Below, piece by piece: positions 729-63,786 of a stretch of 64,000 nt of DNA. Numbering within the stretch: the first letter of the stretch is position 1; the number at the start of each line of letters is the position of its first letter. The notes beneath the pieces are model-generated. The model saw only the letters and a program-made list of their open reading frames with translations, was not told the origin of the DNA and searched no databases. The stretch covers positions 24,793,209 to 24,857,208 of the forward strand of contig NC_134510.1 in NCBI RefSeq assembly GCF_027942865.1, given 5' to 3'. A program made the translations under genes and the position numbers. Origin of the DNA: Odontesthes bonariensis (lineage: Eukaryota > Chordata > Actinopteri > Atheriniformes > Atherinopsidae).

Positions 729-3700
729 TCAGACCATCATCTGTTTGAGGCCACTTTTGAGGAGCTGGTGACAGAGCTGACAGAGAGAGAGCTCACAGAT
801 CCTGCCCTGACTGATGCCATGAGCAGACTACGACAGGTACGCGGTCTAGTCTCTGACTTACAATAGATTCCCCGAGGGGTGCGACAATTTAATATTGTTC
901 ATATGTCTATCCTGCATCTCAGGTTTTGGAATACAATGTTGCAAGAGGCAAGAGGAACTGAGGGCTGTCAGTGATTGGCTCACTGCGGGACCTTCTCCCG
1001 TCCTCTAGGCTCACACAGGACACGGTGCAGCGGGCTCTGGTGGTCGGCTGGTGCATCGAGATAGTGAGGATATCTTATGTCATGTCTAAAGTTCAGCTAT
1101 ATTTGAAATACTTCTTATTGCCATTAAAGGCTTGAAAGCAGTGTTGCTTCATGCATTCTTAGTGTTTTGGTTCTCTATTTCCTGAAAAATCTCTTTTGCA
1201 CCGGGTCAGAGGTTGTTTGAAAAAAAAAGGATTTTCTGTTTCGAATTAGCTGCTCATTTATTTGCTTGAATAATATGTGCAAAAATCTAAAGTGCAGAGC
1301 TATAGTCATAAGTTGTTAAGCTGTTTCAAAACACATAAATAATTTTCCTACCCTTTTAAAGACTTGTTTTCTATGCAACCAAATGGGCTGAGGCCCAGCA
1401 ATCACACACGTGGGGTTTCGGATGGAGAGTACTGAGAGAGAGATGGAAATGTTGTTGGTTTGGGTTTTTTTTTCATGGGGCTGGTTTACAAAAAGAAAAC
1501 CAATAGAGCTGTCTTTTTTCATTAAATCTATCATGCTTTCCCTGATTTTCCGTTCATGTTAAATATGGTAAAAGTTTCTAGAAAATGAGACAGACATAAG
1601 TAAAAGCAATCCCTGAGACAAAAAAACTCTAGCTTCAGACTGCTGTCAGCTCTATTTGCAACATTATTCTTTCTGTTCTGCTCATGACAGATTGATTCAT
1701 ATGGTCATCTGTTCCAGGCGCAGCCAAGAGCCTTTCAAGCTATGGTTGTCTTGATTAATGTTTCTGTACAAAATGAGCCCAGACACAGACAGCGGAGTCC
1801 AAAGAAACTGCTAAAAGTGTTTTCTTTTTAAAAAGGCTGAGAATGGTGGAGCTAGAGAGGCTGAGGTTGATTTGGCAACTGACCAGAGACTGAAAAAGAC
1901 TTGATAGTTGGCAAAGATGGAAAAGATGGCTGAGATGACGCAGGCAAAGTCTGGCAACCAGGCAGGCAAAGCCAAGCCGAACAGCAGTATAAACTGCTCT
2001 TACTTCACTACCTTTGGTGTGCCTTCGGGTCAGTTGTTTTAATTTTACATCTACAGTTAAATATTGTGTGAAAGACTAAACCACCATTTTGTCGCACAAT
2101 TTGTGGGAAATTAGCATAATTTTTACCATATGGACATCACACTGTAACCTGTGTTGCTGTCGATGATCATGTCATCCGATCTCATTAGAATAAGATCCAG
2201 AAATTAACATAAGATAACCCCTTAAAGCTAGTTTAAGAGTAGGAATTGTGTATCAAGTGGTGATCCAACCAAAACAACAAACACTTTTCTCTCAGGCAGT
2301 CATAACTCAACCATGTTGACATTTTTCTTTTAGCTACTATTCGCAGTTTGATCTTTCACTAAACCTTTTCCCCACAACTACAGACTCAGTCTTACTGTTA
2401 TGACACTTTTGAAGGCTGTTATGTTTCCCAATTAAAGTGCCGCTGCTGTTCTGTACAGGTTCAGGGATCTTTCCTCGTGGTGGATGACATTATGGATGGC
2501 TCTGTGACTCGGAGAGGACAGCCCTGCTGGTACAAGAAGGTGAGACTTGATATGAAAAAATATGTTTTTGTGCTTTTTTTGTAGTGTGGTAATTATTCTT
2601 TTTCTGTTGACGGTGTGTTCAGTTTCATATTTGATTGTTTGTTTGTTTTTTCAAGGATGGAATAGGTCTGGATGCCATCAATGATACGCTTCTCTTAGAA
2701 GCATCAATCTACAGACTACTCCGCAGACATTGCAGGGATCAGCCTTTCTATATCCACCTACTAGAGCTTTTTTATGAGGCAAGTCTGCAATTAGTAAATA
2801 CTTAATGGCAAACACTCTAATTTGACATCAACTGATAAATTTCCCTTTCCACTAAGTTTCTGTTTTAACTTTTTCCCACACTTAAGAGCCAGAGGGAGGC
2901 TGCAGAGTGATGTTTCCTTCTTAGCTAATGGTGAAAAACTTCCACGCCAACAATATGATGTTAGGGATGTTAATCTCTATTAGTCCATATCACTGTGCAC
3001 ATGAAAGCAACTCCTGAGAGTAAATTTTACCAGTACGGGGTGTGATTTATATGAGACTGCTGTGAACGCTACACCGAGGGTTTTAATCTATGTTTTTTGT
3101 GTTTCAGACCATTTTCCAGACAGAGCTCGGTCAGAGTCTGGATCTCATGACGGCTCCAGTTGGTCAGATTGACCTCAACAGATTCACCATGGAAAGGTGT
3201 GAAGGCAGTTGCAAATTAGAAAGTGAGAAGAAAGAAAACCTGCTGTTTATATTGATACACTTTTTTACTTCAAATGTAATTATCGTCTTCTCACCCAGGT
3301 ATAAAGCTATTCCAAAATACAAGACTGCCTTTTATTCATTTTACCTACCGGTGGGAGCTGCTATGTACATGGTAAGTGTTTCTATATTGTAAACTCAGTA
3401 GGCATGATGGGGGTGCTTGTGAAAAAGTTAGAATAAGATAAGCTGACACAACCTGGGCTTATGAAATAATAGAGTAATGTGACACTCTTTCCTTTTTGCA
3501 GGCAGGAATGAGTAATAAAGAGGAACACAATAATGCCAAGCACATTTTACTTGAGATGGGGGAGTTCTTCCAGATACAGGTCATTTTGCACATCATCATG
3601 TCATGTTATTACAAATTTGCTCACATATTGCATAAAGTGTTGCATGCTAAGCTGTATTAATAAGCCACCAGTGCATTTCATTTGAAGGATGACTACTTGG

Positions 3701-4111
3701 ACTGTTATGGGGACCCTGCTGTGACTGGAAAGATTGGTACAGACATCCAGGACAACAAATGCAGCTGGCTGGTAGTGAAAGCCCTGGAAGTCTTGACTCC
3801 CAAGCAGAGATTAGAGCTACAGGTGTGACTGCTTTTCTGTTGGAAGAAGTAAAATATAAATAAATAGTTTTTGTCTTGAGATTATTGATCAGTGCAGTAC
3901 CAGTTTTTTTTTTTTTATCGTTGTAATTTTTATTTTTGTTTGCTTTAATCGCACTAGCTGTGGTCACCATATTACAAAGTTCTTTGTATCAATCAAATCA
4001 CAAGAATCTAATCTTTCTAACAGTCTGTCGCATGTCCACCCATTTATACACAGCACTTGTATACACTGTAAAAAAACAGCTGATAGCTGCTTTTGTGCCG
4101 TTGGAATTTAA

Positions 4112-4667: not shown

Positions 4668-5040
4668 TAAAGGCTCAGCTTTAAAGCTTCGGTTTGCGAT
4701 AACTTTATCAGCAGAAGTGTACCCGACACTGATCTCCCGAGGATACAAATGATTTATTCTTTGCTCCTTTGCTTATCTTATATCACATCTACTAAAAAAC
4801 TGGACTAATTGAAATGTTCATGATCAAATTCATCTTAAATTGCTTCTCAGGCGATTCTCAAAAGTTTTGGTCATTATGTGATTCAGGCCTGTGACTGTAT
4901 TTGTGATTTTACAGAAACAATAGATGTGCTGATCCTGTTTGTTGGCAGTGTGATGCTGGTAACGTGTTTATTTGTATACTGATATGGATTTAGAATGGAC
5001 AGATCAACATCGCTGGCACTAATGGAACTAGTAGATGAAT

Positions 5041-6918: not shown

Positions 6919-7193
6919 GCTTGCTATGGTTGCAGTGATGAAGCCAGGGTAGCAAAGGTCAAAGCGCTGTACAACACCCTCCAAATGCCAGCATTGTATC
7001 ACAGATATGAAGAGGAGAGCTACCAGCGGCTGCAGGAGCTCATCGCTCGTCACGCTGGAAACCTTCCACACTCAGTCTTTCTCAATTTTGCCAAAAAAAT
7101 CTACAAGAGGAACAAGTAAAAAATCCTGGTGGCTATAAAAGTATGGAAAAAACTTCAACTGAGATGTAAAAATCGAGTCTTCTTGCTTTTTAA

Positions 7194-8128: not shown

Positions 8129-8299
8129 TTAAAGAGGGTAAAGTCTCTCACTACAAGAGCAGGGCCTGAACAGAATTGTGGTATTTAAATAGCTTTTCAG
8201 TTTCTTGTAAATGTCAGGTTATGAATGACATCATACAGCCTTATTAGCTAACTATTAGCTATAAGCCTCAGATCAGCTGAAACACTCAGTGTATTTAAG

Positions 8300-16039: not shown

Positions 16040-19000
16040 ATGAGGCGCCTGCTAAGCTGCGTTTTTAAGGCCCCTAAACTATTCCGGACCAAGTGGCTGA
16101 CAGAGTATCCGCCTAAATTGAAAAGTCCTGCTTTAAAGCTGTGCACCTCGTCTCTCCAGGGAGACCTTGTTTGCAATGGGACGCAAAGCGAAACGCCGTC
16201 GCTGTCGGACTCTCAGCTGTTTGACGCGCAGTTTGATGAGCTGGTGACTGAGCTGACAGACTTTCAGGATCCTGGACTGGCCGACGCACTGAACAGACTA
16301 AAGGAGGTGTGTGTTTGTCTTGCTGAGTTTCCGCAACTACCCCGCAACTGTGTGATGTGGTTCACATGTGCATTTTCTACTTCAGATTATGGTGTACAAC
16401 GTCCCAGGAGGTAAAAAGAACCGAGGACTGTCGGTGATTGGCTCACTGCGGGAGCTGCTTCCACCCTCGAAGCTCGCACAGGACACGGTGCAGCGGGCTC
16501 TGATGGTCGGCTGGTGCATCGAGATAGTGAGGATTTGGTGACATGTCTTGTTTCACAGTGTTAAGCCAGTAATGCTCGTTTATTGCCTGCCTGGCGCAAC
16601 TCGTATCCTCCAAATTCATGGTATTTCACTGTAAAAAAAGAAGAAAGAATAACTGTTAATAACTTTAGTTGCAGTATTTCCTCTTAACTGTTTCTGTTTG
16701 GAAAGATTGGAGCAGAAGGGTTAAGACTACTGAGACAGAGAAAAGGAGATTGTTGGGTTATCTTCTAATAAATTAACTAAATGTTCTTTAGAAACTAGTT
16801 GAAGAATAAGTTGCCTGGCACTAAATGTGATTTGATATGAGGCTATGTTTTTTGGGTTTTTTTTTTCACCCACTAATTCATGCTATCTCACTCCAAAAGG
16901 TTCAGGTTGGTTGTTTGAAGGATTGAAAGTACTTGTTCTGTGCAGCTCAGTGTACAACTAAAAGTACATACTCACACTTACTGGTGCAAAGACACTTTGC
17001 AAGAGTGTTATTTTTTATGATTTTCAGTGTTGCCACTATGTCTCCAATTCTTGCAGCTTCAGGCGTTTTTCCTCATGGCAGATGACATCATGGATGGATC
17101 TGTGACTCGGAGAGGACAGCCCTGCTGGTACAAGAAGGTGTGACTTGATGTATTCCAGAAAAAGAGAGACTAATATATTTCTTTTTGTAGCGTTGTAATT
17201 TATGCATTTTCCCTATTGAAGGTGTTTCCCGCGTAAATCTTTCCCGTCATTTTTTTCTTTTCCAAAGGATGGAATAGGTCTCGACGCCATCAATGATGCA
17301 GTTCTTGTGGAGGGGTCAATCTACAGAGTACTGCGGCGACACTGCAGGGATCAGCCTTACTACGTCCACTTGCTGGAGCTATTTAATGAAGTAAGGCTTG
17401 GTCCTTGTAAAGCAGCTATTTCAAAGGTGTTTTGAGTTTGTCACAATACTTGGGGGGAGGGGTGTCATACGCAAGTGCAGAAACCGAGCCTGATCTCAGG
17501 GAAGGTGCGGCTTCCGCCATGTGTCAAATACCAACAAAGAAATGGATGCTCATATCATGCTTTTATGCCTAAAGATGTGATTGACTCATGCAGATCACTC
17601 TGAGATCGACTTGTTGACCGTATCTCATGATTAGCAGACAGATTTATCTGTTTTTAATTATTTGAAATCATATGTTCATTATAATAAAATCCTGTGGTTG
17701 GTTTGTTTCACACCAATAACAGATCAAGATCCCCCTTTTTTGTTTCTTCTTTTTTTTTTAAAGTGGTTTAGGTTTAATTGTTTGATTTTAATTGGCAACT
17801 GTCAAGCCAGATCGAGTGATCAATACTGACCATGCAAATGGACCTGAGTTTGCTTTAACCAAAACAAGGAAGTTGTGAGATCACCATGTGCGCTGTACAT
17901 GTAAGATGTTTCCTTTTTTTTTTTTTTTTTAATGGAAACAAGTTAAAGTTTGGTGGGGATTTTCAGCCCTCCGTAGGCTTGGATTTTCAAAAATGTAACA
18001 TACCCCTCCCACATCTTTTCATTTAGATAAAGAGACTGAGATGTTTTGCAACTTCTTTGACAATGGCAGACGAAGCCAGCAAAAAACTCCTGATCGTACC
18101 AAGTGTGGTAAACTGCGATGGTGCAAGAGTACAGAATAAAACAAACGCATACCTAACTCGGGGGGGGGGGGGATGCGTTGCATGTATTGTTCAGCCCAAA
18201 GCTTTAAACCTAAAGATACAGTGTTTAATTTCTTCTCTGTGTTTCAGACCACTTTCCAGACAGAGCTTGGTCAGACTCTGGACCTCATCACTGCTCCGCC
18301 TGGTCAGATTGACCTCAGCAGATTCACAATGGAAAGGTGAAAAGAGGAGGGGTGTTTAAAATGAAGAAACACTTACTCAATAAAGAAGTTTCAAATGTAA
18401 ATGATCACAGATTGTTTTTTTTAACTACTTTCTTTTTGTTCTTTTAGGTATAAAACTATAGTGAAATACAAGACTGCCTTTTACTCGTTCTACCTCCCCG
18501 TGGCGTCGGCGATGTACATGGTGAGTATGATGAACTCTAAACTCTGCACAATGGTAAAGGATGGTAGTGAACTGCACAGCTGCGCTGCGGCAGTGTGGGC
18601 CTGTAAAGTAACAGCGTTGGTTCGATCTCACACCTGCTGCACCTTCCCTCTGCAGGCTGGAATCAGCAGTGAGGAAGAACACAACAATGCCAAACACATT
18701 TTACTTGAGATGGGGGAGTTCTTCCAAATACAGGTGATTACTGTTTTACATCATCAGGGTGATGATAAACCAGACTTTCTCACATCGTAATCAATGTTCA
18801 GATGAGTCTGCTGCTGTGGTGATAATCATCCAGCGCATTTCGATTTCAGGATGACTACTTGGACTGTTACGGTGACCCTGCTGTGACTGGAAAGATTGGT
18901 ACAGACATCCAGGACAACAAATGCAGCTGGCTGGTGGTAAAAGCCCAGGAAGTCATGACTCCCAAGCAGAAAGCAGAACTGGAGGTGAGTTTCCCATTTC

Positions 19001-22575: not shown

Positions 22576-22702
22576 GATCTTGGGAGTAAAGCCAAGATGT
22601 GACTGTCACGGTGCGTCATAGTTTGGATCGGTCCAGCCTTTACAAAACTTGTTTCTATAGCAACAGAAATATTACACAGTCTTATAGAGCCCCATTCCCA
22701 CA

Positions 22703-23432
22703 ATGCAGTCCTCCTCTCAGCCTCCAAAGCCACGTCGTTTTGACGTCAACAGGCGGACCAGTACCTTGGCGGGACCAAAGTCCCTTGGCACCGGAGTTCA
22801 GAGGGAGGATAAAAACATGAACACGATCACCAAATCCTCCCCACGGCGGGCTACTAAAGGCCCTGCTGCTCCCTCCAGAACCAGGGTGGGTGTGCAGCCT
22901 CGAGCTCCAGTTATCCAGTCCAGGCTGAGCTCACAAAAACAGGTTTCTGCCATCTCCAGAGCAGCTAAACCCAAGCCTAAGAGTGCTCGTGCAACGACAA
23001 CAACCAAGAGGGCACCCGCAGCCTGTCCTCCTCCTCCGCTCCCCGCTGTTCTCCCTCTTGATCCGAACTGCAACGAGCCGAGCCTCCCGTGTCTGTGCTG
23101 CGATGGACGTTCGCCGCAGGACAACAACAGCATGTTCAACCATAACCACAACAACAACAACACCATCTCCCTCAGACAGCAGCTGCAGCTACCCGCTCCT
23201 CCGGCCCCGCTGCCCCAAAAGCATGATGGGACAGGGGCCAAAAAACAGCCTCCATCACAAGCTCAGGCCCAGATGGATCCCTCTGCTCACCCTGCTGCCA
23301 ATCTGGAAAAAGAAGAGAAGAATGCAGATGAAAGAGCTGATCTAGACAACAAGAAAAAGATAGAGGAGGAAGATGATGACGAAGAGAGCAGTGCTGATAT
23401 TGAAATTGATGATGATGAAGAGGAGGCTGACA

Positions 23433-23466
<34 letters not shown>

Positions 23467-26400
23467 CACCCTGGTGCCCTCGTGCTGCGACTGCCCCCCC
23501 TCCCTCTTGGACTTGTCCCTCTCTTCCTCTACCTCTTCATCCTCCACTTCCATCAGCTCCTGCTCCGATCTGGAGTCTGACTACGCAGATCAATCCGCCT
23601 CCATCTGCTCCTCCCACGAACAGGACGATCTGTCTGCTGCTCTGGCCCCCAAAAATCACTCTCTTATGCAAGCCCCTCCTGCACGTTCACCTCCATCCCT
23701 TCCTCTTAGCCGAAATCCCTTTTCCTTACCATCATACTCCCCAACTGCTCCTTGCTCCCCAGATGAGGGCTACCCATCTGTGCTCGACTCTCCTTCTCCT
23801 GACTACTTAGGAGTCAAAGGTGACTCTGAGGTCACCAAACTAGGTTTGCTCGACTTTCTAGAGTCAGTAGGGGAGTTTGGGAAAATGGAACGCTTCAGCC
23901 AGGTGATCCAAGTTGCTCGTTGGGATCTGGAAGGGGAACAACACTGGGATGTTCTGCGGGATCGGATAGATCACCTGGATCGTCTGGAAAAGGTGAACAG
24001 AGAAGTAAAACTGGCCTATATTGCCAGACTTCACGAGAAGGGATTTGATCTTGAAGATCTGGAGGAGCGGAATCTAGAAGACGTCATGGATGAAATGGGC
24101 AATATCGACATTCCCTGGAAGTTGTACAAAACCCACAGTGGAGGAATGGGACATTCTCAGGAGTTTTCGGACGCTGGGGTCGACCTTACGGCTCCATCAG
24201 ACTGCGATGATCCTCTAGTTCCAGATTCCCTGATCCCATCCCCCATCGAGCCGCCACCCAGACCCCCTAAACCTCCAGCACGTCACGCCAGTGTGAGCTC
24301 TGACCTCCACACCTACATAAACATCAGCAGAGAGACGACCTCCATGGCTGTCACCACTTCGCCCACACTGTCTACTTTCTCTCCAAACTCCTCATCCCCC
24401 ACATTTACCACTTTTAGATGTGAGAAACCCCTTCCTCCATCTCCACCATCCATTCCTCCTCTCCCTGCCTCTAAGCCAGTCCCTTACTTCACCCTCTATA
24501 CCACTCCTTCTCCACCTCCATCTATTCCCACCCCAACCCCTCCTATCCCTCCTCCTCGAAGACGACACCTTGCTAGAAAGGAAGCGCAGCGTCTCGCTGC
24601 TCTTCAAGCTGAACAGGAAAAGACCCCCCTGTCCCTTCCACCACCCACCACACGCCCTCCACCTCTGCCTCCCCCACCTGTTATCTCAGTTACCTCTTCC
24701 TCCTCTCCACCCGCCATACCACCTCCACCTGCCTTGCCTCCTCCTCCCTCCTTCCATGCATTGGATGTAGAGATTCGTAAGCTACTTATGCTCGCTGGAT
24801 TGACCCAAGCCGAGCTCCTCAAACTCAGCCCAGAGCTTGGTGTCTGCGTCGGGAGGTTAGAGGATGAAGAAGATGGAGCAAATCGCATTACGTCTAGTAC
24901 TCTTGAGTCACAGGAGTTCAGATTGCAAGACAGGGTGGAGGTGATTGAACCTGACACAGGCAGAGATGGATGGAGGTTTGATCGAGATCAAAAAGCAGAT
25001 ACAGCCGAAGAAGGCCAAAAGAAAGAGGAGAGCAAAGACGCACAAAGAACCACTTCATTTACTGAAATGGCAAGAAGAAGGAAGAGGAACACTGGTTTTA
25101 CAGCTGACCATTTCTACTGCCCCAGTTTTAGCAATACACATGAAACTAAAGTGAAAAATACAAGCATTGAGACTTTCTGTTATCCCACTGAGTTACCAGA
25201 TTCACCTCCACCTCCTCCTCCTCCTCGCCCCTTACCACCAATTCCCCCTTCTTTGCCACCAGTTAAAGTCAGCACTTTGTCTGCCAACTCTAAGCAACCA
25301 GAGCGCTTTGATTGGCTCATTGCATTCACACCTGAATGTGACGCTCCACCACAGCTGCCACCCATCGAAAAGAGAAAATCTCTCACAGAAAGCCAGAAGA
25401 AGCTCAGTTCATCAGGTTCAACTCCAGGTTCAGCTCCAAAGGTTACAACCTTTAAAGAGCTCCGTTTCCGCAACAAGAGCAGTTCCCCTCTGACAAAGGT
25501 GATCAGGGAACCTGAGCCTGACCCCACGGTTATCACACCCGATCCAGATATACTCTACAACTTGAAGTGGAGAAGAGAGAAGACAGACAGCGATGGCAGC
25601 CAGTGGGAGTACACCTCACAGGCTCAGGCCTTCTTCATGCAGCCGCCGCCAGCCCTCACCTCAATGGACGCCCTGAAGGAGATGCTCCGGAGAGCTGACA
25701 AGGAGGGTGGAAAACTAGAGCTGTGCCCATCACAGATTGGCTGCTCCATCAGTAACAGCAGCCTGTTGACCATGGGCAGAGAGTGGGAGGGTGAAGAAGT
25801 TAAACTAGAGGAAATGGAAGAGAAGGAAAAAGAAGAGAAGAAGAAGGTGGAGGTGAGAGGGCGGGCTGATGGAGGAAGGACTTTGGAATCAAGAATTACA
25901 GGTGAGTATGGTTTTAATGATGATTCTTCATGTAATTAATAAGCCAGTTTAATTCTTAACAAAATGTAGGTACCTTTATGTCGAGAGAAATTAAATCAAA
26001 ATAACTACAAAAAGCTGGAACAGATAGATAAAAACAGACAGTACTGCTGCTCATCTCCTCACTCATGCACACATAATATCCTCAGACTGTGCAAGAGACA
26101 GAAACCGAAAATCAGGAGGCATGGAAGGGTAGACTCATTAATGGTAATGATACATGGAGTGAGTGCAAATAGATGGAGGGCGAACGTGAGTCACAGAAAG
26201 GGATGGTGCATGATGGATGCTTGATGATGAGGCATAAAAAGAGAGTGATTTCAGAACTGAAGCGAGAGAGAGAAAAAAGGAACAACAATGAGGTTAGTAA
26301 TGGTAATATGAGGAGATGGTGGAGGTTGGAGACTTTCCAGCCAGTATTTCCAGCACTGGTTATGATGTCATCACAGCCAGTTTAAATTATTCATCAGGTC

Positions 26401-41658: not shown

Positions 41659-44600
41659 TTATGAATGCTGCAGGGTCAAAAGGAAATCATTCAGCCGTTT
41701 CGTCCTCTGTTCTCTGCTGCAGGCCTCTCCTTCCCCTCGTTTTGTTTCCTCTCCCTTCTGCTCTTGACTGTTCTGGGTTTTGGTGGGCTGGAGAGAACAA
41801 GTATGCAAAACTAATCACAAAAGTAGATTTTTTTTTTATCCTTGCTTTGTTAAAAGATTTTCTTTCTTGCTCGTGTGGGTGGTGTTAGAATTGTTAACTC
41901 ACGCAGGGGCTGGCAGTGAGCAAGCTGGAGGTGTCCTGACTTTGGTGGTTGGGGTCACTGCTGATTACTGTCACCTCCACCCCCACGGACTGATCTAAGG
42001 GTTAAGTATTCTACATGTTAGCAAAGAGAGGAGTTGCAGGCAGAACATTATGTCTTTTAGAGACACATCGAATTATGTGTGTTCTTGTTTCCCCTTGATT
42101 TCTTTCAGCAATCAGTCAGAAAGTCATTGATGGAAAATGTGTGGTTTTGCTGCTAATGGGGAAAGTTAATGCCTGCTGGGTTCTTGGACACCAGCAGCAG
42201 ATGACAGAAATGGGGAAACATTTCTGCAGGCTGCATTTTGTGGTTGGAAAACCACTTAGTTTAAGAATGATATAGAAAGACAAGCCAAACACGAGGACAA
42301 ACGAGCACACAACACACACACACACATGCACACATAGAGTAAAAGACGCAACACAGGATACAAAGAAAAAAGAAAAAAAAGGTCAACCAGCTGAATAAAT
42401 TATGAAAATGTATAGAGTTCAACCACAGATGCACAAACACCTACAGAAACAAAAACTAACACACACACTTGCTTCATGGACCTGACTTGATGTGGCTGTC
42501 GTCCCCACTGGATTCATCACAGGACAGAGGTTGCGAGTCACCCTCCTCTCCCTCCTCTCCCTCCTCGTTTCTCTCTCTCTCCCTTTCTATCCTCATTCGG
42601 ATCTGTCGGTCTCTCACGAGCTCCCAGTTCCTCACGAGGAACACGTGGTGTTTGACCACAAAGCTCCTGGCCCCGGCACACAGGGAGAAACATTAGCCAT
42701 CGACGCTGACATGAGTTCAGCTGCAAAGCATCAAGCGGTTTATTGTGTAATGTGAATATCCATACCTCTCACTGCTGGTCAGAGGCTCCATGTCGAGGTG
42801 AGGGAACAAGCTGGTAATGTCGCTGGAGCTCTCTTCCTGTGTGGTAAAAAGCACATGCGGAGATGCACGAAAGTTTTAGAGTAATTTATCAAAGCTACAC
42901 TGGAACAGCACAACTTTAAGCCACAAAACTTACCGCTGTCTGCTGGGAGGATGCAGTCCTCTCTTTTATGCGGCCTGAGAGAATTGAATATACATTAAGA
43001 TACAGAACTAAAACAGCAGCTAAACATGATGATAGCATTTCTAATATCGGCAACTTACAGTAACGGCGCTTCCTCTTCAGAGGGACAGCAGGCTGCTGGT
43101 GAAGCTGTAGCAGAATAACATGAGAATTACTACCTAGGATATTAAAACCACTCTGAAAAGCTACACTCCATTATTTAAAAATGCTTGGAGCTCTCTGATT
43201 GTCTATTATTGAGAAATTCTTTACCTGATTGTGCTGCCACAGCCACATCACATCATAGGGCAACTGGAAATGAATTCTCTTTAGCCTTAGGTACTTTCCT
43301 GGAGAGGATTAAGAGAGTTTGGATCAATGATCACAGCAAAAACAAACCACTAGCATTGTATTTGTGTTCTTCTGCCCTCACCAACGTGCATGGGGGCAGG
43401 TAAAAGGCTGTACTCGTTCTCCCCTGGTGTGTATTCCATACTCTGGCTGCAGTTCTTCTGGGCTTGGAAGGGGGGACTAAGACAGACAAATAAATCAATG
43501 AACTAAAAAAGTCATTTAAAAATGTTATAGCAGGTGGTTTACGTGTTAGTCAACTAACTCGGTAGTCTTGTAATCATCAGAGTAAAGCCCAGCCCTCAGA
43601 AATTTCTTCCTGGGAGGACCAACAGCTCTCTCTTCTCTGTGGATGGTTTCTGGTTGGGACAGAGGCTGGTCGACATCTGACTGGCTGAGACATTCAGGGA
43701 AGGTGTCACACTCGGGTTTATCTGTGATGAGACTAAAAGGAAAGCACAAAAAGAGAGGTAGAATGATAGAGAGGAAAAAGAGAAAGAGAGAGATGGCACT
43801 GGTTTAGTACACAGTGCTGAAAACAGTGGGTTAATATAAAAGTAATGAGTGGTTGTATTGAATATTCAAGTCAACCAGCTCCAGTTTTTACCTCTGATAA
43901 CAAGGAGAGTCACCGTGTTTTCTCTTCCGACCCCTCTTCCTCTTTGCCTGCAACTCCAGCTCTGTGACTTGCTGTGCCGTGTTGCCTCCTCCTCTTCTCC
44001 CTGACATAATGTCATCTTTTCTCCCTGCTATTTCCCTTCCATCTCTGTTGTGGCTGCTTGCTGGCAAGAGGTCAGGTGATGACATGGACAGAGTTGCAGA
44101 TGAGCCAATTGGAGAGGATGAGATGGAGGGCAGTGGATGCTTCCTGGGCCGTCCTGGCCCCCTTTTGTTTTTCACCGCCACACTGGCTGGAGTTGGCACA
44201 CTTTTATGCTGCCCCCGGCTTCTGGAGTCACCTTGTAAACCTGCAGTCACTGAAATGGAAAGCAGGAGGGAGGGGGTGAGGCAGACAGAGGCAGGAGGGG
44301 AGGGTGGGGTGTGTGTGGTGGACAGGAAATGAGACAGATGTGGATCAGTGATTGAGCCGGCAGGAGGTGTGAGGTGAGGGCAGTCTAGGCTGAGTCATGC
44401 GGATGGACCACAGATTAGGTGAGTCACAACATTTCCTCTGACCAGATCACTTCTGGGAAATGCATTAAAAAGTGATTTATGAGCTGAATACACACATGCA
44501 CAGGCTGTAAAAAATGAACACAAACACAGTAAAGTGTGCATACCTTTTAACTGAGCATGCACACGTATGCACTCTTGCACACTATTTGTGTACACACATA

Positions 44601-47600
44601 TGATCAAAGTGGTTCGCACTCTAGGAATGCAGAGCAGACGAAGTAAGAAAAAAAGTCTGCACCAATGAGATTCACTTCAAAACATGTTCTGTTCATAGCG
44701 AGCTCATAGCGAGCAAATATATTCCACTTCTATGTAAAAACAACATTTTCCCTCACTATCTCTCTTTGCCCCCCTTCTGACCTCCTTTCTATTCCTTCAT
44801 CATTCACTCCTGAGGTCATCCATCTTTTTTGTTCCATTTTCCACAGCCCCTGACAAGACTGACCACTCTTTCCTTATTGGATTTTTCCAAGTCAAATAGG
44901 CCCCGTTGGCCAGCAGTGAGGAATAGGCTGAGCTTTAAATAGCCAATATGGTGGTTAACTAATGACTGTGTTCACTGGGCAGCCTAGGGCTGCAACAGCA
45001 TGCGGTTCACTGCACACCAGGAAGATTTCAAAGATTTTCTGGCAGATTCCCCTCAAGATGCTGCCTCCCAGCTACAACACTTCTTAAAAATTCTTCCAGA
45101 AGTGTCTGCAGAGCGGCTGTGTGCACGTCTCAGGCACTACTCTTGCATAGCAGAGAGTGAGTTTGAAACTGGCTATAAAAAGAATGGAGTCTGATTTCTT
45201 CTCAAACACCCTCCAGGCTTTGATGTGTGGCTCGACAAACACCTGAGAAAAAGCAGTGCTGTCACCATATTGTCATTATATGATATCAGTGCTAAAGTTT
45301 CATCTCCACATTTGCCAAATATAAAAAATCTGTCATACTGTGCAAGTGAAAAGAGGCATAAACCTATTATCTCAGCTGGCTGTCATGATTTGGTTGCTAT
45401 TGTCATATTTCAATGGTGTATGTCTCTGTTTTATCTGGATTACGCTCAGTATTCAATCAATATTCACATTTTCTGCCAATGAAGCAAAAACAGAACACAG
45501 CTGTGCATTCATGCAGCTCAAGAAGCAATGCTTTCAATGGATTTTTGTTGTAGCTTTCCAGCCAGAAAAATACTATCATGCCCACATAGTTTCCCTCTGA
45601 GCCACAGACTTGTCAGTTTTTTGCTCACTCACATATTGATCAAATCATTCATGTATCCTCACCTGCCTCCCTCCTCTCTGTCCATGCCGGCTCATCTCTC
45701 CTCCATGACCTCTCTCCACTTCCTTGATTCCTACCGGCCAATCCGCTTCTCAGACCCCTACCCCCTGTTGCCATGGCAGCGGAGGTGAACAGGTTGGTGT
45801 GTGTTGGGGATGGAGACGTCCTGTACAAGTGTGACTCGTGAATATCCTCGCCGTCTTCATCCTCTCCATCTGATGCAGTCAGTCTGCCAGCGGAATGGTC
45901 GCCAGTGAAGCCTTTCCAGCTTGGGTTCGAGTTTCCAAATCCTGAGCCTCCCAGGCTCCCGAATTTCATCCAGGTCTGGCCCAAACCCCCCCAGCCTCCT
46001 CCGAATGAAGACAGGTGAGAGGAACCCAGCCCCAGTGAGGTGAGAGATGTATGTTTATACCTCTCTGCTGAGGATGATGATGAAGCAGCTGCAGAGAAGG
46101 GGTCATTTCCGTTCTGGCGTAACCAGGGGGATTCTTTTGACAGCACGCTCCCTGATCCTCTTGCACCTTTCCTTCCTCCATCTCCTTGCCCCAAAATGAA
46201 CCCTGATCGTGCCTTTGAACTGGTCAGCATCTCTCTTTCCGATATATCATCCTCCTCATCCTCATGTAACTCATCCACGTCATCCATGTCTCGCCCACAA
46301 TGCCTGTGACGATGTTTATGTTTGTGTTTATGTTCGCTCCTCCCACAGCCACAAGAGAGGCTGGATGTGAACCCTGAGCCTCCCCCTCCTCCGCTGCTTC
46401 CCCCTATATCTCCCTCAACCTCTCCGCCTAAAGCTCCTTCCCTCAGTAGCCTGCTCCTCCGCCTGTGGAATCTGGCCGGGTTGAGAAGGAAGTGGGCATG
46501 GTGGGGTTGATGGGGGGCGTATTGGTGAGGGGGTGGAAGCGGGTATGAGCCGGGTAGGTGGTGATAGAGTGTTGGGGGATAGCTGCTGTAAAAGCCCATA
46601 TTTTCAATGGTTTCCTGGAACTTTGACGGGCAGCCACACTGCCTGCGGTCTGGCTTCCTGTTGCAGTGACAGGGGAAGAAAGGCTGCGAGGTGAAGGAGG
46701 GACTAGCAGAGAAAGATGGAGGGTGAGGCGAGTAGAAGCCATTTAGATTGATCCTGAAGATGTTGGAGCGGAGAGAATGAGGGGAGGAATGATGTCGCCT
46801 TCCTCCGGAAGAAGCACTCCCATCAAAGCCTTGCCCCAGTCCTGTCCTCGCCCAACTTCTTCGTCCAATGTGGACCTCATTGAACATAGCTATCAGATCA
46901 TCTAGTTCAGCCAGAAACTCTGGATCCTGCATGTGCAGCTGCTGGTGCTTCTTCTTATGTTTATTTTTCTGTTTCTTCAGTGCATTGTGCCCAAGGCAAG
47001 GGTAATAGTCCGACTGAGTGCACTTATTGTGTCCTGGGCAGGGACAAGGACACAAGCAAGTACAGGAAGAGGAACAGTCGTAATCCCTACGCCTGTGCCG
47101 GTGTCTGTCTCTGTGCCGCTCCCCAGTATTTGAGCTGCTCAGAGGGTTAGTGAGTCTGGGCATGTGAGAGAGGGGCGATGAGACTGGAGAGGGACGGTCC
47201 GCAAGAGAAGAAGGGAGTCTTTGCCCCCCCAGAATTGCCCCTGAACCATGACCCAACCTCAGCAGTCCTCGAGCTCCCCTCATCTCCCCTCGCTCTGAGA
47301 CACTGTTATTATCTGTCCCAATCCCGCTGTCGCTAGGCAGTGTTTCGTCGCTGTGTGACTCACTCCTGGGGGATTGGGTCGCCTCCTTCAGGTGGCTGGG
47401 AGAGCCAGGTGTGGGATGAAGAGGAGGGGTGGGGCAGTAGAGCTTACATGAAGACTGGTGAAAGGGGAAGTGATGTCTTCCCTGACAGGGACAGCTCTTC
47501 TTCACAAAAGGAGAAAGGGATGAGGAGGAGGGAGGACGGGGGGATGTACAGGAGGAAGATGGGGAAGGGAGGGAGAAAGGGTGAGAAAAAAGGAGGGAAG

Positions 47601-50600
47601 ATGTCGGTTCCACGAGGCTGACTTCGCTGTAAGGACTCTGGGCACCACTAGAGTGGGTAAGAGATGGGGAAGGAAAAGGGTGAGAGGGAGGGGGCTGTGG
47701 TTGGTTAGATGAGAAGAGAGATGTTTCAGAGGGATTGGTAAACAGAGACGGCTGAGTGGAGTTCTGGGAGCTGGAATTTAGATTAGCTGTTTGGGATTTA
47801 GGCTTGCGTCCTCGCCTCTTGCCCATGTAGATGGTGCCTCTCTTACTTACATTGATCTGAGGGCCCAGCTTACTCCCAAAAGAGGAGGACAGAGCTGAGA
47901 GCGTGTGTACCGTTGTAGCCTCATTTGATTTACACATTCTCAGAGAGGTGTCCCCGTGTGCTGCCTCGCCTCCCTTTCGCTCCTTTCCAACAAAACCAGA
48001 CATCATTACTTTGTGAAGTCTCTTCTTCTTTCTTTTCTTCATCTCATTAATCAGTCTCCTGATCTTTAGCTGCCGGTTCCCCTTTTCAGGAGGGTGAAAA
48101 TCGTTACTCCTCTCCGTATAAACAGCATAATTCAATGCATCTCCACTCTGGTCCTCAAGGAGGGGGCGTTTGGGAGGACGACCACGCTTCTTGGGGCTGG
48201 ATTTAGACTGAGCGGCACACTGCAGTACTGGACTTGGCTCCAGCACAGGGGCTTTCTGGAGTCCGTCACACCCCAGAGGAGGCACCTCAGTTGTGACATC
48301 GTTTGGTGAATGTCGAAGGGGAGGTTCATCTAAGCTAGAGCTGTGGGATTTCGGGCGGCCCCTTTTTCGGACAACGTTTATGGGGAATCTGGAAGCAGGG
48401 GGGCTCAAATCTGATTTGGGATGATTCTGCTTTGGGGTTGGAGGTTTGACTGCAGAAGACAGAGGGGAGGAGCTGCTGGATAAGGAGCTAGAGGGCACAG
48501 GGTGTGACTCATCACTCTGCTGAATACTGGCTTTGGCAGGAAGGGGTGTCTTGGTGATCTGGGGGAAATTTAGTGAAGGATTATGTGAGGAATCTGAAGG
48601 GGATTCCTGATTTTCCGCCCTCTGAGCACGGTGCACCAGCTTAGTCCAGCTGGGCCTTCTTGCTTTACGTTTTTTGAGCGGTCGGCTATCCTGCTCTTGG
48701 GGAGAAGAAGGGGGAGAAATGGGAGCATGGGCAGAAGACGTGGGCAGAGGGGGAGGAGCAGAAGAAGTAGAGTGGGTTGGAGGCACAGTTGAATGTCTTG
48801 AGACGTCTTGTTCTTTTGATTTACTGGTATCACCTGTTGTTGCTGGCTCTGCTTGTTTGGCTGGCTTGCAACTGTCATCTGTCTTGTCGTTCTCATCTAA
48901 TCTGCTAGGATTCATTACTTTACAGGTTTTATCTAGTTTACCATTACCAGCTGTTTCGCAGCATTTGGCATTGTTCTCCTCTGTTCTCTGCCTTTCTGGA
49001 CTGAGCTTTTCTCTCTTTTTCTCAGCTTTTAGTTCATCCCAGCCTGAATTATCAGCTCTGTGTTTATCATCCTTTTCTTTACCATGTCTTGATTTTCCAT
49101 CTTTTCCCTTCTCCTTTTTCTTCTTCTTGACTTCCTCATTTCTGCTCTCACTCTTTGCACCGTAAGCATCGAGTCTATCTCGCTTTGATATTTTATCTCT
49201 CCGTTTCTCTTTCTTAGCCTTCCTCTCTTTATCTCTCTTTTTCTCTAGAGGGGTCTGTAGAGAAGGATCCTGACCTTGGGATTGGACAGAGGAGATATCC
49301 ACAGTGGGGCAAGACTGCGGTTTGGGGGTGACTGGGTGATAGGAAGGAGAGTCGGTAGAGCCAGTGGAGACTGGAGGCCTCGTTGAGGAGTCCATAGAAG
49401 AAACAGAGGAAAAACTGCTGTGTTTTACAGCTTTGTTTTTCAGAGAGGTTGGAGTGCCAAGGATGTTTGCAGAGGTTCTCCCATTCGACAGTCCCTTCTG
49501 TTTTGCTGTCTGAACCAAACCATTATGTTTCTTGGAGCTCTTCCCATCATTCCTGGTTTCTAGTGTGGAGACTGTCTGGATGCATGAGGTGGACGGAGTG
49601 GTTGAAGCTGTCTCGTCTGTTGTCGGTGAGCAGGGTTTGGGTCCTGCGGGGACAGGCTGGCCATTCGCAATTGGAAGTTTGTCTTTCTTTACTTTCTCTG
49701 CTGAGCCATTTGAATTCTCCTCTGTCTTATCGGCCAGCTTGACGGGAACCTGGGGAATGCAAACACACAATCTCTGTCACAGACAGCAGCGGTTTTGACA
49801 TCCATTACTTTGTTGATGATTGCAGTAAAGGATGATAGAAAAGAGACAGTAACTGAAATGCCTTTATTAATGAGCGCGAGGGTAAAATTACTCAATCAGA
49901 CGGAGAAATGAGGACACACTAAAGAGAAGAAGAGAGTGAGGTGATGGAAACAGGAATGGGGTTGACACAGAAAGAAGAAATACAAAAGGTGGAGAAACAC
50001 AGAGGTAGAGTGGGACAGTGACAGAGGGGGGAGTGAAAGATAAATGAGAGCAGGTAGAGAAAAGAGGGGTTGTAAAAATAGAAGAGAGGGACGGATATAG
50101 AGAGCCAAGCAGAGTGAAAGAGAGTGGGAAAGCGTTGCTATTGGTAGCTATAAATTGCCACTAATACCGATGAGAAGGCTTGACATTTCATACTTGTTCT
50201 GTAATTTTGGTATGCCGCTGCTTGAGTGGCGTTTGAGCAGCTAAAGCTATAAGCTTCCCCTTGGGTGATTATCATGAGGACTGATGGCCCAGTGTTTGTA
50301 ATAACTCCAAGTGGTTGCCGTGCTGTTGTCCTATTAATAGATCTGTTAATTCTAATGTGCTGCTTAGGTTTCAGTTTAGAGACAATAGCTCATTTTACAA
50401 GTGAGGACAAAGCTGGGTGACTTTGAACCGTTTAGGTGCATCTATAAAGCCTGGTGATTAAACCTAATCAGAGCAACAGCACATATACCCTTGGTCATCG
50501 CAACTTTTATCTATTTTCCTCTATTTCAAGCTAACTGGCATGAGAGATGATTGTCCTCAACCTACCTGTTTGACAGTCTTGGTCCCTGGGCTGTTTGTGG

Positions 50601-51222
50601 CAGGGACAGAGGCTGGGGTAGACTCTGTTGATGATAAAGACGGTGGCTGCGCTAACGAGGATGATGATGATGTAAGTGGTGGTGAGGCAGCAGTTGCAGT
50701 TTTTTTGGACGTGGTCTGGACAGCATCCAAGTCTGAGCGTTGCTCTCTGTTTGCCTCGTCTGTGGTGGAGCTGCTTTTACTCTGCTGGCCAGCTCCTGCA
50801 TCTCCATCCACCCTCAACAGTCCCCCCCTGCCTTGTCTCTGATAGGTTCTGATGGTGGGCTTGCACACGTAGCTTTCCAAGATCTTGGGCGGTTTTTTGG
50901 TCCGCTTGGCTTGAAGTCCAATGCGGACTCGTACATTTCCCTCAGGGCAGCTCGTCTCTCTGCCAGAGATCTGAAGCTCCTGCTGCCCTACACTTCCACA
51001 GCGCCCCTCAATAAGCAGCTCCAGCACCGTCCCCTTGTCTCCTTCCCTCTTTTTTCCTGCTCCTCTTTTCTCCTCCTCTTTTTTCCCCACATTTCCATTT
51101 TCCCCCTCCCCTCTCCTCTTCTTCTCTGCCACCTGGTCCTTCTCAGAGTCTTCAGGTGCAGACGTGGGGTCCAGAGTGGAAGCGGCAGTTGGAGGGGTTC
51201 CCCCCTTCACTCTCTGGTCCAT
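41659..51222 (-). CDS. ash1l: ASH1L-like chromatin protein lacking SET, bromodomain, PHD and BAH regions
   Basis: Coding exons in transcript order: 51222-50566, 49749-45663, 44249-43892, 43732-43559, 43476-43382, 43298-43225, 43104-43059, 42974-42934, 42836-42766, 42666-42482, 41994-41903 and 41787-41659 (stop TAA). They sum to 6009 nt with every phase agreeing: 2002 aa. ASH1L matches: [13 protein letters not shown] with a YVCKPTI block (exon 1); [17 protein letters not shown] and [11 protein letters not shown]-hooks (about residues 683, 743, 861); [17 protein letters not shown] (about 1023); [17 protein letters not shown] (about 1612); [55 protein letters not shown]; and a C-terminal [13 protein letters not shown] tail. 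ASH1L normally methylates H3K36, but this gene passes from the pre-AWS block straight to the post-SET block through introns of about 120, 84 and 97 bp, so AWS-SET is absent. Bromo-PHD-BAH is likewise absent between 42482 and 41787. The ATG at 51222 is the first after an in-frame stop in the 5' UTR. Confidence 0.9.
45663..49749 (-). other. ash1l: 4.1-kb giant exon of the ASH1L-like gene
   Basis: Acceptor CCCCAG before 49749 and donor GCAG|GTGAGG after 45663; 4087 nt (1362 codons plus one base). It is Lys/Ser/Pro-rich and disordered, with three AT-hooks, a [12 protein letters not shown]-type basic helix, a His/Lys repeat ([12 protein letters not shown]) and the ASH1[18 protein letters not shown] block. 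The human counterpart exon continues for roughly 300 more codons past LFTSA; here the exon ends about 35 codons after it, so the AMQRQARKM-type block of human ASH1L is not present in this exon. Confidence 0.88.
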
Positions 51223-58855: not shown

Positions 58856-61800
58856 ATGGCCCTTCACAGACTCACCCTCAGGCTGCGACCAACGGTGAGG
58901 TCGATTTTCACTGATGTTTCAGTGCACTGAAGCTGCGGTGACATAACCTGAGCCGTTCACTCAAAATGATTTGCCCTGGATTTTTCTAACGTAGTTTGAG
59001 GTGTCACGTTTTAAAAAAGGGGGAGATTGCAAATGTTTTAATCTAGTGCTGTTGTGTTGCAGATAACACACGTGAGATCCCTTCACACCAGTGGAGGTGG
59101 GCAGCTGCAGGAGGCTGTGGCTGTGCAGACAGAACCGGAGCCCATCTCAGTATGCAGAACACAAGAGAGTGACCCGGTAACAGGAGCTTTTTTTCATGGG
59201 ATATGGTTAATGTACTCTAATGGGTTCGATTGAAGACACTTTGGAGTAATTTAGACATGCAATTAGTTACCTAGTGATTAAATGACGGGTGTAGCACAGA
59301 CATTTAATGATCCCGATGCCACTGAATCTTTTCTAAACTCCAAAGACTTAATTGCATAGTAAATAAAGCTTAACCATGCTACATATATTTTCATGATTTC
59401 ACTACTAGACATGTTAACAGTTCTAATACTCTGAATCTGACCCCAGGACATGAATCTTTGTGCTGGAAAGAGTTTATGAGTCCGGAAAGTCCACAAAGCT
59501 GAGCCAAAAAAAGTTTTCTGAACCATTCGAGCTTACAGTCTTAGTCAGAATCTGTTAAGGTTTTGTCATTTCTGTCTCTCAAAGACTTGGGAATGTTAAT
59601 GAACCTTTTCCTCACATCCCGTCTGCGCTACTATATTCTTTATACGTAGATGAATACAAGTAGCCTCTTTCATTTGTAGATTGGGCAGTATTGACCAATC
59701 ACAATCGAGAACTGGTTGCAAAGCAGGTGAACAAAGCAGGTGGAGGGCAAACGGTGCAACACACTGGCTGAAATAAAATCTCTAAACTGTTGTCAAACGA
59801 CTTATTTTTGTGATGTTGACTAATAAGTTCATATTGGTGTCTCTCCAGGCGTTCCACTCGGAGAAACATATCGGACAGTTTTACACTCTGCCTTCCGCAC
59901 ACGTCCGCTCTCTGTTCCCTCATGGCCTCCCGTGGCGCTATCAGCAGCAGGCAGGTTCCTCTTTGGATGTTGGGAGTTAATGAGTGACATCTGGCTAATT
60001 AAATAATATACATGTTGTAAATTTGAAATGAAAATACCTGTATGAAGTATACGAATAGAAAGTGTTCTGTGTGGGTTTTAGGTGAAGACGTTTAATGAGG
60101 CCTGCGTCATGGCGAGACAGCCAGCTCTGGAGGTCATCTCTTACCTGAAGAAAGCAGACTACAGCAAACCTGCTTTGAGATATTTATTCTGTATCCTTCC
60201 AAACACGCACGTGCACATGCACAAACCCCTCTATTCTTGAACTTGAATAAAGCTGTTATCCTTATGGCGTTGCTCAGATGGGTTGAAGGGTAGCGGGAAG
60301 ACGATGTCTCTGTGTCACACAGTTCACTTCTGCTACACGCAGGGGTGGCTGGTGCTGCATGTTCCTGATGGTGAGACACACACAGTCGCACACGCCAGAT
60401 GCTTGTTAGCGGAAAAGAAAGGACTGCACACGGCGATAACGGTAACCCTGCCACCTTTCCCATGTCTTCGACAGCACACCTCTGGGTGAAGAATTGCAAG
60501 GAGCTGCTGCCATCATCCTATAAGGCCTCTCGCTTCGACCAGCCACTACAAGCCATAGCGTGGTTGCGCAACTTCAAAATCACCAATGAACCGTTCCTTT
60601 CAAAGGTAGAAACATTTACTCTGTGTCTTTTGCTTCACTTTAAAAGCCTGATGGCGCTAAGTTGTCAGACTTGTAGGCCTTAATATGTTTTAATGACTTT
60701 GATTCACTTGATATCTTAATCAGCAAACACTAACGGGGAGGAGCTCACTCGTGTTTCTGTTGTAATTGTGTCTACAGCCACGTGCTATTCTTATATCTCA
60801 CTGGGTTTGGGTGTTTCGGAACACAAGCTCTCTGTATGTACAGAAGTTAAACACAACACTCTTATCACTTTGCTTTAACTTCTGGCAGCCTACAGCAAAC
60901 CTGAGAGCTTGCCACAAACTTGTCCATCAGGTGTGATTGTTCTGGGTTTTTTTTTTTTCTGTAATTTAACACTGTTTTCAGTCACTCAAGCCTTGAAAAC
61001 CAGATCAATCAAAGCTCAAATGGAACAAAACTTGAACCACACGTGCACCACAAACAAGTTGGACTTGAATTTAAACATTGTCGTAACCAGACTGAAACTT
61101 TTGTCAGTCGAAATCTCCTTCGTCTCATCCGACCTTCATTTCGTGTACATATCCTGTCATGTTTTCAGGTTTGTCTTCAGCTTTTTTTTGCTTGGATTCA
61201 AACTGAATTTGGCCTTTTTGAATTGGCTGAATAGAAGTTATGTTTACCTGGCGGTAATCTGCAGAGACTGAAGCCATTTGGGGGGACGAATCTGTCTTGC
61301 GTTACTATGACCCACAATGCATTGCAATGTTAACAACAATGGTAGACTATGAGTGAAAGGCTTTTCTCTGATATTAAAAAGAAAGTCTTCCTGAGTCTTT
61401 TGGAAATCGTACCCAAAGCCAGTGTTAATCTAATAAGCCATGTAAGTCTTATGAGTCGGACTTCAATTTAAAGCTAATGGAGGATTAGGAAATGTGTTTT
61501 GCAGATGGTACATGAACACTAACTGTGGGTTTGCAGCAGTTTTAAGGCACATGATAATGGCACTATGACACCACCTGTCATATTATGTTACATTTTAATT
61601 ACATTAAAAAAAAAAGCTGCCTTAATGTTGGTATTTTTAAAAAGTTGCTAACCACCTAGGAAGAAAAGTCTACTCAGGAGTCCCTTAGAAAACCTCTAGT
61701 CGAGCGTTTTTTGTTGCTCTTTGTGTGTAAAACAAATTAAAACATGATAAATTCATTTATTTACTACATTGGTGACTGAAGTCTAAAGAAAAAGACCATT

Positions 61801-63786
61801 GCACAGCTAAAAAACTGAGGAATTGATTTGTTTAGTTAATGCTATCTTATTTCACCGGCGGTTTTGGTTTGGCAGGTGATCTGCACAGGTCGTGTAATTA
61901 GATATCGGTGCTATCCAAACATCCCACCTGCACTAAGCAAAACTGGTGGATGGATATGCAGTTTTAATGGTGCTCCCCGGATACCCTGAGCATCTTAGAA
62001 CTGGGACTTTGTAACTTGTAATTTGGTAATCCAAAGTCTGCAGGTGGCAAATTAAAGCTGAAGGCGCCCCGACATCCTGTAAGAACAATAAAAGCGGCAA
62101 AAACACTAATCACTTCTGATCAGAACTTTCCGAGTAAAATCAGAGCAGACGCAGAGATTCTTGAGTTGGACGAGCTTTAGCTGCATTTTAAGGCAGAAAC
62201 TTTTTCCTGGAACTAGGGTCTTTGGGATGGATCCGTAACCTCGTGGAAGTGTGTGACTTGAAATGTTTGGGAGTAAATGCATCTTAAAAAAAAAAAAAAA
62301 GCACCTCCTGGTTTAACTGTCTGTGTTGGCAGCTCCGGCTGTTGGAGAGGACGTAGTTTGCCCAATCCAGCCTGTAACTCAGACCTCAGTTGTAATGCAA
62401 AACACTCCAGGCTGAAGTCATATTTTAATTCCTTGGAAAAAAAGCTGTGGGGTTAATCAGGATCTGGGATCTGTTGGTCAAAATGAACCTTTTCTGTCCA
62501 GGCAACCATTTACCTTATGTCCAATCACATGAATTAATGTCAGTGCAAACAAACACTGGTAACGCAAATTTATCTAAAAGAGAAAAAGAAAAGTGAGTGA
62601 ACCTGTCCCATTTCCTTCCCAGATAAAAACAAAGCATCGCTACGTCTGGACAAAGAGGGAGTCCACTGACGAGGGACGTACACTCGCAGAGCTTGTGGAT
62701 CAGGTGAGTTCCCTCCCATCAGTGTAAACGACTGTGGATGACTCTCCTTTGCTTTTTATTTTTGCCTGAGTTTATCTCCTTCGAGTCGAGCTTCATCTTC
62801 ACCTCATGTGTGCTCTGTGTTGATCAGTATCCAATGAACTGAGCCCAATGAAGGATCAGCACAATATTGTTGTGGCTGTGCCTGTGAATATCTCCCTTTC
62901 TGTCAGTCATCCTTCTGTTTTAGTCTTTGTGGACACACATTTGTGTTTGGCTTGCCAGCGGGACTTCTTTAGGGGATGATATTAATTTGACTCGAGCATC
63001 TGTTGTTTAAGAGCAATCTCACTGCGAAGTTTGACAAAATATGGGAGATTTATAAGTCGTATTATTTCTCACCTAATCTGTCTCAAATCCAAACATCCAC
63101 AGGCTTAGAGTGAAATAAATTGAGTGTGAAATTACTCTCTCCTACCCTATGCTGACTTCACCATAACTGTGTTGCTCTGAATCGTTTTGTTTTCCTTCCA
63201 CGCTGTCTTATTTCCTTTCATAACACGCAGTCATCAGGCCTGAATGGTTTTCTGTGCTGCAGGGGATATCACGTGTGAAGAGCAGCAGCGACGTTGTGGG
63301 GGCAGTGATGAAGGAACTCAGGCTGCAGAGCGGGCAACCAGGGGTGGACTTCCGCCTGGCTGTGGTGGTGGATGGTGTCAATGCCCTGTGGGGACAATCT
63401 AGCCTAAAGAAGGAGGATAAGACTGCTGTGAGGAGGAGGGGGGGGGGGCTTCTCAATGCTGGCATGCCTTGAATTCAATGTTTGTTTTGTTTTGTCTCCA
63501 CTTGTTGCAGATGTCAAGTTTCATATGTCTCGTTGTCTCTCTGCCATCAGGTGGATCCAGAAGAGCTCACCTTGATTTACAACCTGAGAAAGCTGACGAA
63601 GAACGACTGGGTGAGAAGAGCACGAGTGCTGACAACAGTCACTGTTGAACATGACGTTTGAACAGTTTTTGATGAATATTCCCTCTCTTGTCCCAGACCG
63701 GAGGTGCCATCATCACCACTCTGTCTCAGACGGGGTCTATTTACACTCCAAAGGGTGCCTACTTACCACAAGAGCTGCTCGGAGAG
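58856..63786 (+). CDS. dap3: DAP3 / mitochondrial small-ribosomal-subunit protein mS29 (MRPS29), 3' end beyond window
   Basis: Exons: 58856-58894 (ATG at 58856), 59063-59176, 59849-59950, 60082-60190, 60278-60370, 60475-60605, 62623-62703, 63263-63427, 63551-63610 and 63697-63786, all in phase: 328 codons. The human protein is 398 aa, so about 70 residues and the stop lie to the right. The N-terminus [13 protein letters not shown] plus THVRSLHTS is a basic mitochondrial presequence. A Walker A P-loop GLKGSGKT sits at about residues 123-130 (human GEKGTGKT). The Walker B-like strand is [13 protein letters not shown], followed by [21 protein letters not shown]. mS29 is the GTP-binding head protein of the mitoribosomal small subunit and a pro-apoptotic factor. 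One donor (after 59950) must be GC (CAG|GCAGGT) to keep the family frame QQQ-VKTF. The gene points away from ASH1L. Confidence 0.93.
60606..62622 (+). other. dap3: DAP3 intron
   Basis: Starts GTAGAAACAT and ends CCTTCCCAG. No nested gene was recognised. The 120-codon frame at 60909-61271 shows no family similarity. Confidence 0.6.

Follow-up and report, generated by a model that had tools for sequence, protein, structure and literature searches.

ASH1L and its fly homologue Ash1 act within the AMC complex (Ash1-MRG15-Caf1). According to an excerpt of PMC5963871, MRG15 stimulates the adjacent SET domain, about 30-fold for fly and 7-fold for human enzyme fragments, and fly Ash1 no longer co-purifies with MRG15 once its FxLP motif is replaced by RxRP. 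The interacting region holds an invariable KYLR, and the fly R1288A substitution weakens MRG15 binding (PMC5696344, excerpt). Binding of MRG15 is described as releasing an autoinhibitory loop in an excerpt that also mentions structures of such complexes (PMC8106495). Here we analyze an ash1l-like gene that encodes no SET domain, located in a 64,000-nucleotide (nt) stretch of DNA from Odontesthes bonariensis (GCF_027942865.1, NC_134510.1:24,793,209-24,857,208, forward strand; one assembly of one species), which is called the window throughout.

The window is part of C6 in the genome numbering used here, and the gene was compared with an ash1l copy on C23 of the same genome. Exons of the SET-less window copy are named E1-E12 and those of the C23 copy X1-X24 plus X15b. 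Pfam scans were read at an expect value (E) of E<=0.1, and the window was searched by tblastn at E<=1e-3 with open reading frames of at least 18 amino acids (aa) from C23 as queries. Exon counterparts were judged by shuffle tests (300, 1000 or 2000 shuffles). The genome-wide searches score the best candidates only, so that presence is firmer than absence.

An ash1l copy without catalytic and reader exons

The ash1l-like gene lies on the minus strand at 51222-41659. Its 12 coding exons give 6,009 nt when spliced and encode 2,002 aa with a terminal stop only, and all 11 introns have GT-AG borders with consistent phases. Each of the five remaining frames of this model contains 59-103 stops, and the probability that E2 stays open over its 1,362 codons is about 2e-26 from base composition alone. 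An earlier, sequence-only reading of this DNA had placed five exons at 43298-43225, 43104-43059, 42974-42934, 42836-42766 and 42666-42482 and had anticipated about 2000 open codons; all of these borders were recovered exactly, with GT-AG introns and agreeing phases, and no internal stop interrupts the 2,002 codons. The donor at 42481 (CAG/gtccat) agrees with the consensus at 6 of 9 positions, a score shared by five of the ten other donors, but lacks the usual purine at +3. Inclusion of E11 and E12 depends on this donor; if it is unused, the frame stops at 42476-42474 and the product is 1,931 aa long. An AATAAA occurs at 41291, downstream of E12.

The C23 copy (C23:16859777-16835093, minus strand, read from 100 kb) has 25 exons and codes for 2,941 aa, the only stop being terminal; its X18/X19 junction is uncertain, the donor having been picked to keep the frame. 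Exons X8-X12 encode AWS, SET and post-SET, and X15-X22 encode the bromodomain, PHD and BAH. In the 1,051-aa tail of this copy Pfam finds SET, BAH, bromodomain, AWS and PHD, together with one further weak family. Up to the point of the first loss the two genes run in parallel, E4-E7 and X4-X7 being identical in size (174, 95, 74 and 46 nt) and in phase. None of the C23 exons for AWS, SET, post-SET, bromodomain, PHD or BAH has a match anywhere in the window by tblastn, and the Pfam scans detected no domain in E1, in E2 or in the 421 aa of E3-E12.

The SET-less copy has thus lost AWS-SET-post-SET and also bromodomain-PHD-BAH, and no Pfam domain remains in it. The sequence-only reading had described a clean removal of AWS-SET-post-SET. 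That module is indeed gone, but the loss is larger than it claimed, as the reader cassette is missing too. The same reading assigned [10 protein letters not shown] to the post-SET exon, which proved wrong: the post-SET cysteines of the C23 copy are in X12, and the counterpart of this block lies two exons later, in X14. Methyltransferase activity of the window gene product is predicted to be absent because no SET domain is encoded. By descent the gene belongs with ASH1L, but its domain content does not allow it to be classed as an ASH1L methyltransferase, since the defining catalytic and reader domains were looked for and are lacking.

Past the first loss, E8 could by position and phase be taken for a remnant of X12, and the likeness is attractive by eye. 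However, the shuffle tests do not support it (70/1000 as protein against the C23 tail, 549/2000 as DNA against X12). The relation between E12 and X23 is suggestive only.

Genome searches placed the SET-bearing counterpart. The sequence-only reading took the window gene for an ash1l duplicate, to be supported by a second, SET-containing locus, and the AWS family search found this locus on C23. With the C23 AWS-SET protein as query there were 48 matches, five of which (90-100% identity) are the C23 exons themselves, while the other 43 are all at or below 65%. None of the 48 is inside the window, nor is any of the 69 matches to the generic SET family, in agreement with the claim that the window lacks SET and AWS coding sequence. 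The AWS family search gave five matches among 36 scored candidates. One of them, on C23, is ash1l, and the other four, judged by eye, are of NSD type. Among the scored candidates, an ash1l-type AWS-SET was found on C23 only. The E5-E10 protein had eight matches in the genome: five on C6 (the SET-less gene itself), two on C23 and one on C24. The last (E 2.28, three stops) is taken as a chance match.

Several further SET hits (C16:897536, C16:1414231, C32:170955, and others on C2, C13, C15 and C18) have equal or nearly equal scores and lie in frames of 144 codons, in some cases interrupted by two stops, a pattern suggestive of a multiplied SET-bearing gene or element.

Age and constraint

At fourfold-degenerate sites the window and C23 copies are identical at 100 of 332 positions, which is near random, and dating by synonymous divergence (dS) failed because the silent sites are saturated. 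In E4-E7, E9 and E10 together (204 codons), on the other hand, second codon positions are 72% identical. Neutral evolution of the window branch would predict 45% identity at a divergence d of 1.0 substitution per site (P 9e-15) and 64% at d 0.5 (P 0.009). Identity at second positions is 56% over the 1,547 codons of E1-E3, where long neutrality is excluded (d 1.0: P 1e-18). Much of E2 is weakly constrained; it includes conserved blocks at aa 835-875 (30/41 residues but 2/13 fourfold sites identical) and aa 995-1045 (38/52 residues, 6/20 fourfold sites). The chance of an intact frame after 1% neutral divergence is 0.1 if stops alone are counted and falls to 0.0011 if one indel is assumed for every ten substitutions.

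By this comparison the two ash1l copies are old duplicates, with fourfold sites near random and exon sizes and protein blocks persisting. An intact frame and conserved blocks beside saturated silent sites argue for a SET-less copy that selection has maintained up to the present or until very recently.

Possible roles of the SET-less copy

The best conserved small exon is E6, with 19 of 25 residues identical to C23. The E5-E7 protein matches human ASH1L in PDB entries 6INE (E 3.9e-18) and 6AGO (E 6.2e-13), both of which we take to be MRG15 complexes. An FQLP (FxLP) at aa 1801 in E6 aligns with human ASH1L of these entries in the conserved place, accompanied by a KYLR whose arginine is, in our own reading, fly R1288. 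By homology E6 is the MRG15-interacting segment and a predicted dock. A pattern search found three AT-hook-like motifs with a GRP core, at aa 682, 741 and 1614. In fly Ash1 the AT hooks and BAH, and not the SET domain, are needed for full binding to mitotic chromatin, none of them being essential in interphase (PMC8426247, excerpt). The Caf1-binding part of fly Ash1 (residues 1582-1616) lies before the bromodomain (PMC10148413, excerpt), and it may correspond to the kept E10 block or to the lost X15.

MRG-domain loci gave five matches in the genome, at C1:13.79 Mb, C12:20.28 Mb and C16:21.58 Mb. Those on C1 and C12 resemble two copies of MRG15 type; both C12 matches are in 240-codon frames, as if intron-poor.

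We give about an even chance to the reading that we favor, in which selection maintains an old ash1l duplicate, stripped of both cassettes, as a long non-enzymatic chromatin protein. Its product would bind MRG15 through FxLP and DNA through the AT-hook-like motifs, and as a non-catalytic adaptor it would bring MRG15-containing complexes to chromatin or hold them there, while the C23 copy would supply catalysis. Each step from motif to function is one that we infer. The sequence-only reading had suggested, as a possibility, a scaffold or a competitor of the active paralogue. An adaptor is favored, with an antagonist as its main rival, because the activator's dock is retained while the activated domain is gone, and because the AT-hook-like motifs remain.

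A more specific proposal is tentative, and we think it rather doubtful. In it, the ash1l copy of the ancestral fdps-rusc1-ash1l-dap3 neighborhood would, following the fish genome duplication, have shed its writer and reader domains alike and turned into a conserved non-enzyme dedicated to MRG15 binding, which would tune the H3K36 dimethylation set by the other copy; it would have been missed because surveys search for SET domains or bromodomains. In excerpts, such surveys of zebrafish and tilapia show one ash1l each; by their design they are unable to detect a SET-less copy.

Several observations weigh against an adaptor. The fly allele ash1-3M, whose only possible product retains no domains other than the AT hooks, is loss-of-function; moreover, the SET, PHD and BAH domains of fly Ash1 are all required and the AT hooks dispensable (PMC6829142, excerpt). 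The behavior of ash1-3M suggests that such a protein may alone have no Ash1-like role. In flies, complete binding to mitotic chromatin takes the BAH domain as well as the AT hooks (PMC8426247, excerpt), and the SET-less copy has no BAH. Finally, the second positions of E1-E3 would suit a neutral branch of shorter length (d 0.5: P 1).

A dock for the activator without the domain that MRG15 activates would also suit an antagonist, a product that reduces H3K36 dimethylation, either by titrating MRG15 or by joining the active C23 Ash1l in mixed multimers. From fly genetics it has been deduced that Ash1 works as a multimer, so a mixed complex with the active copy is conceivable. However, ash1-3M heterozygotes are normal and the authors hold that the allele is not dominant negative, which weakens the idea of a competitor (both PMC6829142, excerpt). 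On balance we regard an antagonist as unlikely. MRG15 belongs to several complexes, so its titration would be unspecific.

Less probable still is a role independent of MRG15; function would then reside in the long disordered region and its conserved blocks, leaving the docking exon as a relic. The strong blocks in E2, such as those at aa 835-875 and aa 995-1045, would fit such a role, but a relic would have decayed, and E6 is better conserved than any other small exon despite the saturated silent sites.

That the gene is a decaying pseudogene is very improbable. Every recognizable folded domain has been lost and E11 has no counterpart, as might be expected of decay, and a very recent onset (about 0.1-0.3% divergence) would be compatible with the sequence. 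Nevertheless, the 2,002 codons contain neither stop nor frameshift, 11/11 introns are GT-AG, and an intact frame would be a low-chance outcome already at 1% divergence. An assembly artefact, with SET and reader exons dropped or misplaced, is hardly credible even with one assembly only, as the window contains no N, the two separate losses are each spanned by a phase-compatible intron (of 84 and 487 nt), the genome search with the C23 AWS-SET found no further ash1l-type SET exons elsewhere, and the copies are far too diverged for collapse.

Neighborhood and comparison with known systems

Table 1. Coding features of the window and the two introns at the sites of loss (positions in the window; C23 exons named as in the text).
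Feature	Position	Strand	Description
fdps-like locus 1	2426..3822	+	PF00348
fdps-like locus 2	17057..18984	+	PF00348
rusc1-like frame	22688..25939	+	1,083 aa, proline-rich; no Pfam family; genome search finds its own place only
E12, last coding exon with stop	41659..41787	-	weakly like X23 (2/300 shuffles vs X23, 27/1000 vs whole tail)
E11	41903..41994	-	no recognizable C23 counterpart (927/1000 shuffles)
487-nt intron	41995..42481	-	C23 has X15-X22 here (bromodomain, PHD, BAH)
E10, [10 protein letters not shown] block	42482..42666	-	counterpart X14 (0/1000 shuffles)
E9	42766..42836	-	counterpart X13 (0/1000 shuffles)
E8	42934..42974	-	41 nt; possible remnant of X12 3' part, by position and phase
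84-nt intron	42975..43058	-	C23 has X8 to most of X12 here (AWS, SET, post-SET)
E7, final exon preceding AWS-SET loss	43059..43104	-	46 nt, size as X7
E6, MRG15-interacting segment by homology	43225..43298	-	KYLR and FQLP; 74 nt, size as X6; 19/25 residues identical to C23
E5	43382..43476	-	95 nt, size as X5
E4	43559..43732	-	174 nt, size as X4
E3	43892..44249	-	PGRPRK and RGRK motifs
E2, large exon	45663..49749	-	about 1,362 codons; two RGRP and one RGRK motif, conserved ASH1L blocks; counterpart X2 (36% / 1250 aligned)
E1, start codon and N-terminal coding exon	50566..51222	-	219 codons; counterpart X1 (37% aa identity / 197 aligned residues); no Pfam family
dap3 exons	60277..63430	+	PF10236

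The SET-less copy appears to keep neighbors that we take as ancestral, the human order being FDPS-RUSC1-ASH1L-...-DAP3 at 1q22; the rusc1-like frame is so named tentatively. The SET-bearing copy was not found beside such neighbors: the seven genome matches to PF00348 comprise four in the window, two on C25, one on C2 and none on C23, and all three matches to PF10236 are in the window. A second related SET gene pair, presumably of kmt2b type, lies at C6:21.03 Mb and C23:16.17 Mb, with 91-92% identity in two SET exons. SET gene pairs shared by C6 and C23 fit a chromosome-scale duplication, and the ash1l duplicate probably stems from the fish-specific genome duplication.

The two fdps-like loci are in tandem on the same strand, and both keep a DDIMD-type exon and a second aspartate-rich exon. 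Two 479-nt arms (7175-7653 and 7669-8147), 98% complementary and 15 nt apart, form a long inverted repeat with a 108-codon open frame in each. Plus-strand open frames at 5062-5454 and 10119-12002 look like retroelement reverse transcriptase; 10119-11168 reaches E 3.4e-5 for Pfam RVT_1, below the family cut-off, and 5062-5454 has a match in an open frame of 1,024 aa on C23. A dispersed repeat is common to both ash1l neighborhoods (window 4109-4680 and C23:16811900-16812640).

This arrangement sets a trap for annotation. Of the neighbors searched for, dap3 and the rusc1-like frame turned up at the SET-less copy alone, and fdps-type genes at this copy as well as on C2 and C25 but not on C23, so that naming by neighborhood would label the non-enzyme ash1l. 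A literature search in one open-access library found no SET-less ash1l duplicate; the gene may already be annotated somewhere, for example in genome browsers.

The locus represents a natural split of the non-catalytic part of ASH1L from catalysis, apparently long kept beside an active copy. A SET-independent role of Ash1 is contested in fly genetics (PMC6829142 versus PMC8426247, excerpts), and removing the SET-less gene would probe the non-catalytic role with the enzyme untouched.

Compared with ASH1L and Ash1 of the AMC complex, the window copy is alike in full-length homology, in the sizes and phases of E4-E7, in the MRG15-interacting segment and in the AT-hook-like motifs; it differs in being without AWS, SET, post-SET, bromodomain, PHD and BAH. 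Like NSD3-short, it belongs to a family of H3K36 methyltransferases yet has no SET domain. NSD3-short is an adaptor linking BRD4 to CHD8, an isoform of the enzyme's own gene that keeps its PWWP domain (PMC8398374, excerpt), whereas the window copy is a separate gene without PWWP, the SET-bearing ash1l being a distinct locus on C23. The SET-less fly ash1 alleles and transgenes (PMC6829142, PMC8426247, excerpts) are likewise Ash1 without the enzyme core, with ash1-3M nearest in make-up. They are, however, laboratory variants with loss-of-function or partial effects, in contrast to a gene maintained beside an active copy.
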